Below the pieces are notes generated by a model. It did not search any database. It was not told the DNA's origin and saw nothing but the letters and a program-made list of their open reading frames with translations. A DNA stretch of 60,781 bases from a virus, in the IMG/VR virus record IMGVR_UViG_3300044638_003487, positions 1 to 60,781 of that record. One strand, written 5' to 3'. The position numbers and the translations under genes were made by a program. Shown here piece by piece: positions 4,701 to 30,058 of this stretch (the stretch's first letter is position 1; each line of letters starts with the position of its first letter).

Positions 4701-7299
4701 TTTAGTTATTGATAATACTTTATTAAATCATTTAGCTGATAGAGGTATTTATATTAGTCTTGATGATTTCCAAGATTGGAGATTAACAGGAACACCTCCT
4801 TCTGAGTTTTTTGATAATGCTAGAAAAATGGTTATTCCAGAAGGTACAGAGTTATATGATGAGTACTATAAGGAATTTGAAAAAGCTGCTTCATTAAAAA
4901 GTCAAGATTCTAGTCTTGTACCAGAATCATTAAATGAAGAACTTAAAAAAGATTTAGAGCAAGCAGATTTAGATATGGAAGCTGAATTAGATTCTATACC
5001 TAAAAAAGAAGTTAAGAATGTAATTAAAAATCTTAAACCTGATAGCGGTAAAACTTTAAGCTTAACTAAAATTAATACTGAACTTAATCCAAATGAATAT
5101 GCCGAAGCTGAATATGGTGGAGACAATCCATTTGTTATTTTTAAGGATGAAGATGGTAATTTAAGATTAGAGAACATTGAGGGTGAGATTATAAAAGATA
5201 CATCTAAAGTAGCAATTAACTTTAGTGAAGTAACTATCTATACTTTAGTTGAAAGAGCTGATCCAGAATTAGCTAAACCAGTTGTAGAAAAGTATGAAGC
5301 CTATAAAAATAAAATTAGAGATGAGTACGCTACTAAGATAGATAATCTTACTAAAGCTGAGGAAGCTCCAATTAATGATTTTGTACCTATTGTTTCAGAA
5401 GTAAGCAGTGTTTTTAAATATCCTGCTTTATACAATACTCTATATACTAGCTTTACTGATAAAGTAATTAGTAAATTAGATCCTGCAGATTTAGATTCAT
5501 TAACTGAAGAACAAGAATTAAACTTATTTAATAAATTCTTACAAACAGATAAAGAAGCTAAAACTGAAATAGAAAACTTTAATAAAAAACAAGTTACAGA
5601 AACTGAAGTAAAAGCTTCTCCTGAAAGATCTGATTTTGAATATATTTATCAAGGTAAGAAAAAAAACACAGCAGACTTAAAAACAATAGCTGATTTAAGA
5701 AAAGCACAAAGAAGATTTAAGGCTTTAGTTGATGATATTACCAGTATGGAAAATCCAAACACTGAGGATATTACAAATAAAAGTAAATACAGTGTTATTG
5801 TTAAAGAATTTGATAAATTAATTCAAGCTAGATCTAAACAAAATTTAACTCCTGAATTAAGAACTGCTTTAGATAAAATAAACAAACTTAAAGAAGCACA
5901 AAGTGAAATACAAGTAGCTGATGCGGGTATGCTTATTGATGATGAAGAATATCAAAATGTTGAAACTGCATTAGGTCTTAAGAAAAATAAGGAGCCTTAT
6001 AAGGTTTATATTGATGCTCAAATTAAAAACTTATTTGAGGGAATTACTCCACCAGTATTTGATACTAATGCTATATCTCAAGAAGCTTTTGATAACTTAT
6101 TTGGTCCAAAAGGATACATCACTTCTATAAAGAATAGAGTAGATAATGGAGAATTATCTGTTATTGCTCAGGATCTTGCAGTATATGATTCAAATACTAA
6201 ATTAGCAACTAATATTGATTTGTTATTAGCTGATACTCAAGGTAACTTACTTATTGTAAATACAATAAATGATTCAAAAAGTAATTGGGATGTATTTACT
6301 AAAAAGGATAATCCAAATTCTAAGTTAAAAGATGTTAAGTTACTAGCAGTAGCTAAGGCTAATCTTTTAAATAATATGATTGGTGTAGATGCTAAAACAT
6401 TAGTATTACCAATTGAGATGAGTGTAAGTACAGCTAATGATAAAATCATGATAGCTAATAAACCTACCTCACCTTCATTAACTGCTGTTGATGCTCTTAT
6501 TACATTAGATAAAAAAGATGTCCAAGATCAGGTGAATAGTATTATTCCAATAGCTAAAAAAGAGACAGTTGAAACAAAAGTTGAAACTGAAAACATTAGC
6601 GTAGTTCCTGCTGATGCTGAATCAAGTGATGATACTCAATCTCCAGCTGTTGAGGCAGGAGAGCAAGAAAGAGAAACTAGATTTATAGATGACAGTGTAA
6701 GATATGGAGCAAAAGAGTTTAAAGAAAGTTTAGCTAAAGCTGATATTACCACCTTTAATGCTGTTATGGCAGAGCTTAATCTTAAAATTCAAGAAGGTGT
6801 TGTAGATGTAAATGATCTTGAGACAATGTCAGAATTAGCAAAAGAAAGATTAGAACAATTAAAACAACCACAAAATGTAAAAATTGTACCTGAATCTTTA
6901 ACTGCAGATAAACAATTTGTTGCAAAAAGCATTATCTTTACAGAGCCCGGTAATCAAAAAAGTGAAATATTTGCTGAAGAAGATGATACAGTAGTTATTA
7001 ACTCTGTTAATACTAAAAATAAAACTGTATCTGTTTCAGCATTAGGTAGTTCAAAACAAATGACTATTGGTTTTAATGATATAAATAAACTCTTTACATT
7101 AAAAGATTCAATAATGGATGCTACAGAAACACAAGATATGAGCCTATCTACAGAAGATAAAATTAAAATTAATGAGTCAATTGACTTAGCTGATGGGTTT
7201 ATAACAAATCCTGATAAACTTGGAAAAGTGGAAGGTGAGTCTTCTAGTAAATCACTAGAAGAATTAGATAATGAATTATTGAATGACATAGATTGTTAA
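1720..7299 (+). CDS. Giant virion protein of the crAss-like transcription/ejection module (1859 aa)
   Basis: This is a very long protein with no catalytic motif I can identify. Residues about 150-290 include hydrophobic, glycine- and alanine-rich stretches that could insert in or cross a membrane. From about residue 600 to the end it becomes long, charged and helical (many E/K/D runs, likely coiled coil), with an acidic segment near residues 1620-1660. It lies between the 571-aa gene (14-bp overlap) and the RNA polymerase gene (4-bp gap). In crAss-like phages such proteins are packaged in the virion and ejected with the polymerase; this role is inferred from gene order and size. Confidence 0.75.
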   Translation: MADINNAGFNPLDSLGPEYGRINRPILDNKGLAPFEGDKLEMPKINFPITPYSDVLESPQRNVREQVVGNPPNKPGASKEKFDFDSYKKGISNKLKAGFESLQDNSTYAKVYSYDAGPDSNAFYKRYAAYGADTFDKIGFSPLRDNEALFNSHTTWWDDHKRMMTNSFWPLFGRGFVAGPKSLGRMLTGDFTGTDIEDARAYKEAAAIGQSSKKGFGAFANNTMMNFGYSAGIMSEAILEEIGGVLLAPETLGGSFFAATANASKNVLKATKGLDVAEDGYKAVNSTLNAIDNVSQARTFWQNANKLGTSAFSPVGSTIKGFQAAKAADNLNNLGKAFKTFGGFYRDVQRINMALSEARLEGGMVKNEVYDKLYNQYYTKNNRPPSDAEQYEMIKQSEKASLNTVLWNTALIYGSNAITFPNIMGSKGGIRSFMKNSLQEFATVKGGKFGDLGKIVYDKGLKKVVFEKNNLKNLAKSWLKQPIYKSTMGTIGYFKANFAEGIQENLQEVISGANERYYVDSFKSPALRSHNYSKAVAKYNEASQTAYFGDELGKQFTATGFETFASGFAMGALATPVNAVFNNLSVGYNRIFDNKAYQEIKDKKEKIVNSLAEQLNSIDVNEFLNARPFNYATQDVVASIKQYGDKKQANDAHLDAFMSQMETMIQTGTVDVFKDRLMDLTQLSPEEFEEAIPTVPKGEGAAYQNKIPDIIKKAKKIEERYKYYNEKFPNPVTYNEMPPKDSPEYEDAAILHNAWNKGIENAIYFNEAFEDTMNRKKSIMETYLSQAPLKGMSQRDSEVIFDIKKLRNEQTILKDEISILKELNDPASQSELQLKERKLEALTKLGDKTATLSNFFNRYERAEEVRKQLQIEKGGEPVTDEEVEKTLDEVFGEYSEENKIKTFSEHEAAYKDYLKALANVNGEYLFDQNIDETYELLGHHFKLDSESRNLMKYVNLLHDPNGFIESVQRNRVWMKDLYKRRSDIYKQMVEEQFNLVIDNTLLNHLADRGIYISLDDFQDWRLTGTPPSEFFDNARKMVIPEGTELYDEYYKEFEKAASLKSQDSSLVPESLNEELKKDLEQADLDMEAELDSIPKKEVKNVIKNLKPDSGKTLSLTKINTELNPNEYAEAEYGGDNPFVIFKDEDGNLRLENIEGEIIKDTSKVAINFSEVTIYTLVERADPELAKPVVEKYEAYKNKIRDEYATKIDNLTKAEEAPINDFVPIVSEVSSVFKYPALYNTLYTSFTDKVISKLDPADLDSLTEEQELNLFNKFLQTDKEAKTEIENFNKKQVTETEVKASPERSDFEYIYQGKKKNTADLKTIADLRKAQRRFKALVDDITSMENPNTEDITNKSKYSVIVKEFDKLIQARSKQNLTPELRTALDKINKLKEAQSEIQVADAGMLIDDEEYQNVETALGLKKNKEPYKVYIDAQIKNLFEGITPPVFDTNAISQEAFDNLFGPKGYITSIKNRVDNGELSVIAQDLAVYDSNTKLATNIDLLLADTQGNLLIVNTINDSKSNWDVFTKKDNPNSKLKDVKLLAVAKANLLNNMIGVDAKTLVLPIEMSVSTANDKIMIANKPTSPSLTAVDALITLDKKDVQDQVNSIIPIAKKETVETKVETENISVVPADAESSDDTQSPAVEAGEQERETRFIDDSVRYGAKEFKESLAKADITTFNAVMAELNLKIQEGVVDVNDLETMSELAKERLEQLKQPQNVKIVPESLTADKQFVAKSIIFTEPGNQKSEIFAEEDDTVVINSVNTKNKTVSVSALGSSKQMTIGFNDINKLFTLKDSIMDATETQDMSLSTEDKIKINESIDLADGFITNPDKLGKVEGESSSKSLEELDNELLNDIDC

Positions 7300-27363: not shown

Positions 27364-29271
27364 TTAAAATAATTTTAATTGGTTATTAATAGGTTCTAAA
27401 GACCTAATTTCTTTATAAATATTTTCTAAATAATATTTTTGATTGATTCTATATTCAGAAAATACTTTCTCTTCATAGTCAATCATAATAGTTTGCATCC
27501 ATTTCCCGGCCTCTACCTGGATTTCTCTGCCATCACTATTATTAGTTTTAATTATTTTAGATCCATTGTCTGATACAAAATATCTTATTGTATGTTGTAA
27601 AGGAGTATTAGTATAAGTTCCATCAACAACAGTATGCTGATGAAATGTCCAATCACCTTTAATTTTTACACCACCACAATAATCAAATATGTTTTGGTTC
27701 TCAGCTAAATAATCTTCAGGTTTAACACCTTCTACAAAGTATGCATGTATAGCTTTAGGTATAATTAAGAAACTCTTGTTTTTATGAAGAGCTAAATCTT
27801 TATACTCAAATCTACCTTTACACTTAGATTTTCCATCTTCAGTAACAGCAATATAGTTATTAACGTCACCTAAGATTATTTTACTATAAGTGTCATGCTC
27901 AAGCTGCAGTAATGTTTGTTTTTCCCAGCGCGCACATATCTCCATATACTTATCTACATATTCTCTTGGGATTAAAGTCTCAAGACCATCTGTATTTTGC
28001 ATAATCGGCATAGCACCCGGAATCTCTTCACAAATCATTTCATATAACATGCTTAGACATAACTGACCATTAATAGTAATTCTCATAGTAAACTCAGGAT
28101 CATATAGAAAACTATGTTCATCATTACTTAAACCATAAGTTGAATTTAAGATAATCTTATACACATAATTTCTTGGATCAGATTTAGGAATCTTTTTTCT
28201 TTCTTCAAAGAACCACTCATATAAATCACAAAAATCTTTTTGTGGTAAGTGTCCTGGTGCCCATTTATTTCTAATAGCTAGATTAGGATAGAAACTGGTA
28301 ACATCAGAAGTCATAATAACCATGTCTTTATCAGATTCATAAACCTTAGAAGATCTAGCACCATGTATACCACCTAAGCCATAATCTGTTTTCACTCCTT
28401 TGTACTGAATAGAATACTTAAATCCTCCTTTAGTCTCACCTGGATAGATGTCTACTTCATTAAACTTCTTTAAAAGATTTTGAAATGTAGCTGTCTTAAA
28501 TTCAATATAAGGTAGTATAATATCTTTTACTACAATCTTAGGCCTATGAGTTCTCATTTGCTTAAGATGGTATTTTTTAATTCCTGTCTGATTACTTAAG
28601 AAATGTAAAAATAATTCTTTAGAAATTCTAGGCTCAGAGGCAGAGAATAAATCAATGTTGTATTCTTCAGTTAAAGTTCTTCTCAAAGCAATCTGATCTT
28701 TACTAAACTTCATTATCTGTTTAGTAGACTTAACATCATTAATACAATATGTAATTATCATTGGAATTTGTGAACTCTCAATTTTAGTAGTATGGTGTAT
28801 GGGCATATCAATGATATTCTTCCAATCCATAGTATACTGAATCCACTTTAATGAACTTCTCTTAGCTGGATTATCCCAGTGATTAAGTTTAAATACATCT
28901 ACCTGTCTAATTTGGATATCACGGGGTCTAAACTCTAAAAATTCTCCATTGTTTTGTCTATAAATTACTTCTTGTGCTTTTCCATAAATAAATTTAGCTA
29001 CATCTTCAGCTGTCATATTTAACAGTTCATATGCATTATTTAAGATATATTGTGTTATTTGACTATCAAAGCCTAGACCATTGAAACTTACATGCCATTC
29101 ATCTTGTACAATATTAGTATCAAGAAAGTTTAGGAATTCTTTTAGATCATTTCTACTTTCATGTATAACAAATACTTCTTGATGTTCAGACTTAATATCC
29201 TCAAAGCAGGCTATAAAACAGTTGGATAAGGTCTCGAAATCCATCACCCAATGTGTGCGGTCTCTATTCAT
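27364..29271 (-). CDS. DNA polymerase, family B (635 aa)
   Basis: The exonuclease domain shows ExoI DFET at residues 11-14, ExoII FNGLGFDS at 63-70 and ExoIII YCINDVKS at 175-182, giving 3'-5' proofreading. The polymerase domain shows motif A SDVTSFYPN (322-330), motif B KIILNSTYG (372-380) and motif C NTDG (426-429). In motif C the first Asp of the usual DTDS is Asn, while the metal-binding Asp is kept. At 635 aa it is short for the family. The start overlaps the stop of the HNH gene by 8 bp (ATGAATAG). The N-terminal codons are a second, synonymously recoded copy of a stretch left upstream of the HNH gene. Some crAss-like phages carry PolA instead of PolB. Confidence 0.95.
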   Translation of the reverse strand: MNRDRTHWVMDFETLSNCFIACFEDIKSEHQEVFVIHESRNDLKEFLNFLDTNIVQDEWHVSFNGLGFDSQITQYILNNAYELLNMTAEDVAKFIYGKAQEVIYRQNNGEFLEFRPRDIQIRQVDVFKLNHWDNPAKRSSLKWIQYTMDWKNIIDMPIHHTTKIESSQIPMIITYCINDVKSTKQIMKFSKDQIALRRTLTEEYNIDLFSASEPRISKELFLHFLSNQTGIKKYHLKQMRTHRPKIVVKDIILPYIEFKTATFQNLLKKFNEVDIYPGETKGGFKYSIQYKGVKTDYGLGGIHGARSSKVYESDKDMVIMTSDVTSFYPNLAIRNKWAPGHLPQKDFCDLYEWFFEERKKIPKSDPRNYVYKIILNSTYGLSNDEHSFLYDPEFTMRITINGQLCLSMLYEMICEEIPGAMPIMQNTDGLETLIPREYVDKYMEICARWEKQTLLQLEHDTYSKIILGDVNNYIAVTEDGKSKCKGRFEYKDLALHKNKSFLIIPKAIHAYFVEGVKPEDYLAENQNIFDYCGGVKIKGDWTFHQHTVVDGTYTNTPLQHTIRYFVSDNGSKIIKTNNSDGREIQVEAGKWMQTIMIDYEEKVFSEYRINQKYYLENIYKEIRSLEPINNQLKLF

Positions 29272-29728
29272 TTTTTAAATATTTAATTGCATTTTCTAAA
29301 CTATGGATGTTGTCTTTAAAATTACCCAAAGCAAGATTGCAGTTATTACATAACAGTCCTCTTACTTTTCCTGTAGTATGACAATGATCAACTGATAATA
29401 ACTTATCAAGGTCTGTGTCAAGAGTTAAACAAATAGCACACCTATGACCTTGTTCTTCTAACATTTGTAAATAAATATCATGAGTAATATCAATACCATA
29501 GGTTTTATTCCATGAGTATACTTTTCTTCTCAAGATATGTTTATGTTTATTTTTTACATAAGCCTTATTAGCAATTGCCTTACATTTATCAGGATTTTTT
29601 GCATAATAATCAAGCATATGCTTATTAGAACAGGTTTTACAATGTGAATGTAAACCATCTTTTCTACTTCTATCAGTCCTAAAACACTCATTAGGCTGAG
29701 CAATTTTGCATTTTGTACATGTTTTCAT
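29264..29728 (-). CDS. Free-standing HNH homing endonuclease, endonuclease VII-like (154 aa)
   Basis: An N-terminal zinc finger (CTKCK, then CKTC at about residues 4-33) precedes a C-terminal HNH/endonuclease VII fold: CAIC, VDHCHTTGKVRGLLCNNCN and LGNFKDN. The family cuts DNA at the empty target and drives its own spread. I start it at the ATG at 29728, because upstream codons belong to the 76-aa gene region and are not nuclease-like. It sits exactly inside the start of the DNA polymerase gene, between an abandoned first copy of the polymerase start (29758-29790) and the working one (29271). Its stop overlaps the polymerase ATG. Confidence 0.88.
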   Translation of the reverse strand: MKTCTKCKIAQPNECFRTDRSRKDGLHSHCKTCSNKHMLDYYAKNPDKCKAIANKAYVKNKHKHILRRKVYSWNKTYGIDITHDIYLQMLEEQGHRCAICLTLDTDLDKLLSVDHCHTTGKVRGLLCNNCNLALGNFKDNIHSLENAIKYLKNE

Positions 29729-29757
29729 GACTATAAAAATACTAATAATTTTTATAA

Positions 29758-29790
29758 TCACAAATAATCCATTACCCAGTGAGTTCTCAT
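29758..29790 (-). pseudogene. Remnant of the original DNA polymerase start
   Basis: Reading from 29790 the codons give MRTHWVMDYL then a stop. The polymerase now starts MNRDRTHWVMDFETL, so RTHWVMD is shared. The codons differ at synonymous positions (AGA/CGC, ACT/ACA, CAC/CAT, GTA/GTG). The remnant ATG overlaps the stop of the 76-aa gene as ATGA, the usual junction here, so this was probably the native polymerase start before the HNH gene arrived. Confidence 0.75.
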
Positions 29791-30017: not shown

Positions 30018-30058
30018 AATATTGATGTTCAGTTAAGCTGTTCCCCCATTTAGTTAAA

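Follow-up and report, generated by a model that had tools for sequence, protein, structure and literature searches.

A phage endonuclease gene very likely entered a DNA polymerase gene together with a replacement for the gene's start

Introduction

How can a homing gene enter an essential gene without breaking it? The question is raised by a virus contig of 60,781 bases, from a virus of bacteria, in which the start of a DNA polymerase gene occurs twice, once on either side of a nuclease gene. A reading of this DNA made from the sequence alone had proposed that a free-standing homing gene brought its own polymerase start and left the native one behind as a remnant. Here the locus is compared with its relatives (given as L numbers); the whole 60,781-base stretch is referred to as the window. 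The features concerned are:

30027..30047, minus strand: conserved element GGGGGAACAGCTTAACTGAAC (also GGGGRACAGCTTAACTGAAC), placed ahead of the 76-aa gene here and ahead of the polymerase start in most relatives that lack the nuclease
30017-29787, minus strand: 76-aa gene, directly upstream of the remnant and ending in a TGA that overlaps the ATG of the remnant
29790-29758, minus strand: remnant of the native polymerase start, MRTHWVMDYL and a stop, 10 codons, matching the single start of the nuclease-free L007 and L053
29734..29764, minus strand: promoter-like TTTG-N19-TANNTTTA before the nuclease gene, of putative function
29729..29763, minus strand: left end of the cassette, TTGTGATTATAAAAATTATTAGTATTTTTATAGTC, with a junction common to L052, L083 and L086
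29728-29264, minus strand: Endonuclease-VII-type (DHHRN) nuclease gene, 154 aa, with Cys pairs N-terminal and the catalytic domain C-terminal
29212..29271, minus strand: replacement 5' end of the polymerase gene, MNRDRTHWVMDFETLSNCFI, common to the L052 and L028 cassettes
27364..29271, minus strand: DNA polymerase, family B type, 635 aa (phrog_1252, E=1e-141)

Results

Two copies of the polymerase start flank the nuclease gene

The 76-aa gene, the remnant, the nuclease gene and the polymerase all lie on the minus strand. As the sequence-only reading had noticed, the stop codon of the 76-aa gene overlaps the ATG of a short frame beginning MRTHWVMD, which ends after two further codons (ATG AGA ACT CAC TGG GTA ATG GAT TAT TTG TGA). 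The native part of this remnant spans 29790-29764, TAT being the last native codon. The polymerase itself starts at 29271 with MNRDRTHWVMDFETL, overlapping the nuclease gene by 8 nt, and its residues 11-13, D-F-E, are what we take to be exonuclease motif I. The synonymous differences described earlier in the shared RTHWVMD block were borne out: the R, T, H and V codons differ between the copies, amounting to four of the five changeable codons, since W and M each have a single codon and the D codon is unchanged. The element at 30027-30047 is strongly kept across relatives, upstream of the polymerase operon.

Nuclease-free relatives carry a single start

Eighty polymerase relatives were compared, plus a second eighty from a more distant branch. 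Among them, 154 nuclease-free loci had a readable start, with 99 distinct start sequences, and none carried a second copy (0/154). Both copies were present in all six independent nuclease-bearing loci open on both sides (window/L082, L052/L086, L083, L084, L028 and L167); L168 shows the left half of the arrangement before its contig ends. With 0/154 nuclease-free against 6/6 nuclease-bearing loci, the duplicated start is not a matter of chance. The single start of the nuclease-free relatives sits at the position of the remnant, as the sequence-only reading had predicted. Homologues of the 76-aa gene in L001, L007 and L053 adjoin one single native polymerase start, and in L007 and L053 that start directly overlaps the homologue's stop codon, again as predicted. 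The two outcomes named beforehand as contrary to the proposal, a nuclease-free locus with both copies and a polymerase with an unrelated N-terminus, did not occur among the 154 loci. A donor form, carrying the nuclease and replacement start and no remnant, was not found among the loci, which counts against the explanation that we favour below.

The left junction, TAT directly followed by TTGTGATTATAAAAAT, is one and the same in the window, L052, L086 and L083. The polymerase cases are metagenome contigs throughout, so that an assembly or binning artefact fusing two phage strains has to be considered. We regard it as the least probable of all the explanations weighed here: the identical junction comes from assemblies of different samples (window/L082, L083, L052 and L086), and the same anatomy occurs in two nuclease lineages, in several genes and in a cultured phage (PP438436).

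A second insertion is present in the polymerase gene of one relative (L084:5658-6742), before the TVNGQL motif. It carries a GIY-YIG-like ORF (5808-6737), Rfam gave no match, and the insertion is probably an intron.

Near-identical pairs show which copy is native

L052, which carries the cassette, and L057, which is empty, are 98.2% identical in the left flank and 99.0% in the right flank. The left identity spans the native start MRQHYVMDY and ends at the insertion point. In the polymerase gene the first 50 nt are 66% identical and the sequence is then 100% identical, identity returning about 48 nt into the gene. It follows that the native copy is the upstream one and that the downstream one was imported with the nuclease gene, which supports the earlier proposal that the homing gene brought its own polymerase start. 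L028 shows the same sharp right boundary when compared with L035 and L025: the right flank is 93-94% identical and the left flank 95% (L035) or 84% (L025), and the foreign tract relative to L035 is about 60 nt. The remnants match the local type (L052, like L057, has RQHYVMDY), and the replacement starts are common to several cassettes.

Taken alone, the window would also allow a tandem duplication of the polymerase start into which the nuclease gene was later inserted. That scenario is already contradicted by the native upstream and foreign downstream copies of L052/L057 and has very little left to recommend it; replacement starts are common to unrelated hosts, and a duplicated start without a nuclease was present in none of the 154 polymerase and 73 terminase loci.

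The nuclease belongs to the DHHRN family and moves independently of its host gene

The nuclease gene of the window was previously called an HNH homing gene. The nuclease assignment holds; the label HNH is loose, the Pfam match being Endonuclease_7 (PF02945, 3e-24, residues 74-153 of 154). The protein has the DHHRN catalytic pattern CX2-4C...DHxH...R...CX2C plus N, and C97-x2-C100, D114 H115 x H117, R123, C127-x2-C130 and N131 are invariant across six cassette nucleases. Its nearest solved relatives in the PDB are Hpy99I (6.6e-7) and T4 Endo VII (6.3e-4). The Endo VII motif lies at the C-terminus, which places the protein by motif position in the homing, not the resolvase, clade of DHHRN nucleases (criterion from PMC6083498). 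A second nuclease lineage, 41-49% identical, is found in L028 and L167, where the insertion lies about 12 nt further on.

As expected of a free-standing homing gene, the nuclease gene is present or absent at the same site in close relatives (L052/L057, L028/L035 and, at the terminase gene, L115/L357); on alignment these pairs represent a presence/absence polymorphism. Nuclease and polymerase identities disagree across six loci (87% vs 61% between the window and L083, 89% vs 61% between L083 and L052), and the nuclease gene thus has a history independent of its host gene, as for a mobile gene.

Differing small cargo genes lie between nuclease and polymerase in L052 (4427-4999), L083, L028 and L167; that of L052 encodes a 3'-5' exonuclease-like protein (PF16473, 3e-10). 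In L052 (3983-4035) and L086, 53 nt within the N-terminal part of the nuclease gene are inverted in place; the frame stays open, and 52/53 nt match the window when the inversion is turned back. The nuclease of these two loci may be inactive, a point against the explanation that we favour below.

Homing nucleases are often housed in group I introns, inteins or translational bypass elements, and the bypass element of T4 gene 60 adjoins mobA, so that the remnant and the polymerase might be joined in RNA or protein. This is very improbable here: the sequence is duplicated and not split, the polymerase is complete at its N-terminus and begins with an ATG of its own, and cargo genes intervene in L052, L083, L028 and L167. 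A group I intron, with its core between split exons, was also sought as a candidate and rejected, Rfam giving no match in six loci (E<=0.1).

A promoter-like leader, TTTG-N19/20-TANNTTTR, stands at a fixed offset before the nuclease in six of the seven polymerase cassettes and also precedes the nuclease of L279, against a background of 0.5% of 63-nt windows. A sigma-70 promoter scan before the nuclease gene gave nothing beyond chance, and over the window as a whole the frequency of TTTG-N19/20-TANNTTTR is not above chance. The shared offset suggests that the cassette may bring its own promoter for the nuclease.

The same arrangement occurs at other genes

For further cases, Endo VII-type loci were scanned for nucleases flanked left and right by copies of one gene end; this census served case finding and yields no rate, its shuffled null being contaminated by homologous flanks. 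At the terminase large subunit gene (identified by PHROGs), both start copies were found in 9/9 loci with a nuclease directly upstream and in 0/73 without one, where the start was single in all 73. A filled/empty terminase pair, L115/L357, is 96.8% identical upstream and 95.8% downstream; the remnant matches at 46/48 nt, and the replacement start is changed at nearly all synonymous codons.

Duplicated starts also occur at a virion structural protein gene (L144), at a small gene in the neighbourhood of structural genes (L118, L146) and at the nicotinamide phosphoribosyltransferase gene of the cultured Leptolyngbya phage Lbo-JY46 (L279). The architecture is thus found in phages that are not related to one another, and at five genes or more. 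Not all such nucleases show it: 11 of 12 isolates, namely T7-like gene 13.5 nucleases and others, lacked a duplicated gene end; the gene 13.5 nucleases lie between genes, with no duplication.

In L088 and L089 a DNA methylase-like gene has copies of its C-terminal tail to the left and right of the nuclease, which may be a 3'-end mirror of the same mechanism. In L299 and other nuclease-free terminase loci, the second half of the start is of cassette type (IVFSD) and the first half native; these mixed starts may stem from partial conversion in which the nuclease was not transferred.

Recoding of the replacement start

The codons for VMDY, part of the presumed exonuclease motif, differ in each of the six polymerase cassettes (five VMDF, one VHDY), against 11 of the 99 native starts (Fisher 7.7e-6, or 2.8e-4 against close relatives only, relatedness being ignored in both). 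The core ATGGATTTCGARACCTTATCCAAY is common to the window, L052 and L028. VMDF, the replacement type, also occurs in 5 distinct native alleles, which counts against the favoured explanation. So does the synonymous distance between the two polymerase copies, which lies within native variation; for the window, about 21% of natives are equally distant. The recoding of the polymerase start is therefore not used alone as proof of resistance. At the terminase gene, divergence of the cassettes from natives is raised at nt 0-48 only (0.285 vs 0.218), with no excess at nt 90-290 (0.231 vs 0.241).

These patterns bear on a narrower alternative, in which the import is the same and cleavage resistance is irrelevant: the replacement start would differ by divergence acquired in travelling, or because difference protects the cassette from deletion between direct repeats. 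The native-range synonymous distance in the polymerase cassettes agrees with it, and a recoded copy would likewise stop cassette loss between direct repeats. On the other side, the altered codons reach non-duplicated sequence past the insertion point (L052 vs L057, L115 vs L357), where repeat deletion would not select for them, and VMDY is altered in 6/6 cassettes. We consider this alternative possible but rather unlikely. Cleavage resistance, for its part, is consistent with both the VMDY changes in the polymerase cassettes and the local excess recoding in the terminase cassettes, and the imported start presumably resists the nuclease. In an engineered test, PhiKZ gp178 was protected against the homing nuclease gp210 by synonymous recoding (PMC11620839).

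Nuclease-free loci with altered VMDY codons (VHDY or VMDF) are L042, L044, L046, L059, L060, L068, L008, L018 and L058; such phages could carry resistant alleles or scars of lost cassettes.

Discussion

The locus is very likely the product of a free-standing homing cassette that couples a nuclease to a replacement gene start, a natural arrangement resembling a home-and-rescue drive. Such a cassette would consist of a DHHRN-family nuclease gene with a promoter-like leader, optional cargo genes and the replacement 5' end of the target gene. We propose that the nuclease would cut the native polymerase start near the D-Y-E codons of the exonuclease motif. From the junctions, the break would be repaired from a cassette-bearing phage, with native upstream sequence as left homology and the polymerase body as right homology. 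The cassette would thereby be copied in. L052/L057 and L028/L035 show that its start replaces the native sequence as far as a crossover 48-63 nt inside the gene, and that the native start on the upstream side of the insertion is left stranded as the remnant. The open frame shows that the gene stays whole, the start supplied by the cassette being complete as coding sequence; re-cutting would be escaped through the differing target codons.

The nearest described mechanism is that of the mobile endonuclease ORFs (mORFs) of fungal mitochondria, in Allomyces macrogynus atp6 and Glomus atp6, atp9, cox2 and nad3 (PMC3630166). There too a homing endonuclease gene brings along a foreign end for its target and the native end becomes a displaced duplicate, the imported end having diverged far more in DNA than in protein (PMC3630166). 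An imported gene end and a displaced native end likewise flank the nuclease gene here, at the 5' and not the 3' end; the events are alike in kind and affect opposite gene ends. mORFs concern 3' (C-terminal) ends, LAGLIDADG or GIY-YIG nucleases and mitochondria, whereas the present cases concern mostly 5' ends, Endo VII/DHHRN nucleases and phages.

Within the DHHRN family, F-CphI is a proven free-standing homing enzyme of Endo VII type that cuts a conserved phage gene in genomes without F-CphI (PMC6083498). Like the window's nuclease it is encoded by a free-standing phage gene and has a C-terminal Endo VII motif. Its own phage is shielded by a psbA group I intron (collaborative homing), whereas we propose a replacement coding start in that role. 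The seg and mob genes of T4 provide intronless homing with co-conversion of flanking markers and target functionally critical conserved sequence (PMC2988022). The seg genes lie between genes, and mobE (Aeh1 nrdA) and mobA (T4 gene 60) split a gene into two polypeptides (PMC2988022); unlike in the latter two cases, the window's polymerase gene remains one polypeptide. HomeR (PMC7968924) similarly combines a nuclease directed against an essential gene with a recoded end that restores function and evades cutting, evasion being presumed for the phage cassettes. It is a synthetic Cas9 drive of Drosophila acting at a 3' end (PMC7968924) and is unrelated by descent. The open-access literature that we searched, subscription papers being outside the search, contained no 5'-end phage version of gene-end replacement, and a survey of phage homing genes, searched for the relevant terms, reports no duplicated gene starts (PMC10448857).

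We lean towards the broader view that phage DHHRN nucleases often spread as home-and-rescue cassettes with cleavage-resistant gene ends, in many essential genes and with no intron, intein or gene split. The locus shows how a homing gene can enter an essential coding sequence without a self-splicing intron, an intein or a split protein, and from the empty/filled pairs its successive steps can be read off. That the arrangement is found at DNA polymerase, terminase and other genes points to a general route, which also accounts for short foreign patches at gene starts. The cassettes would be a natural counterpart to engineered home-and-rescue drives.
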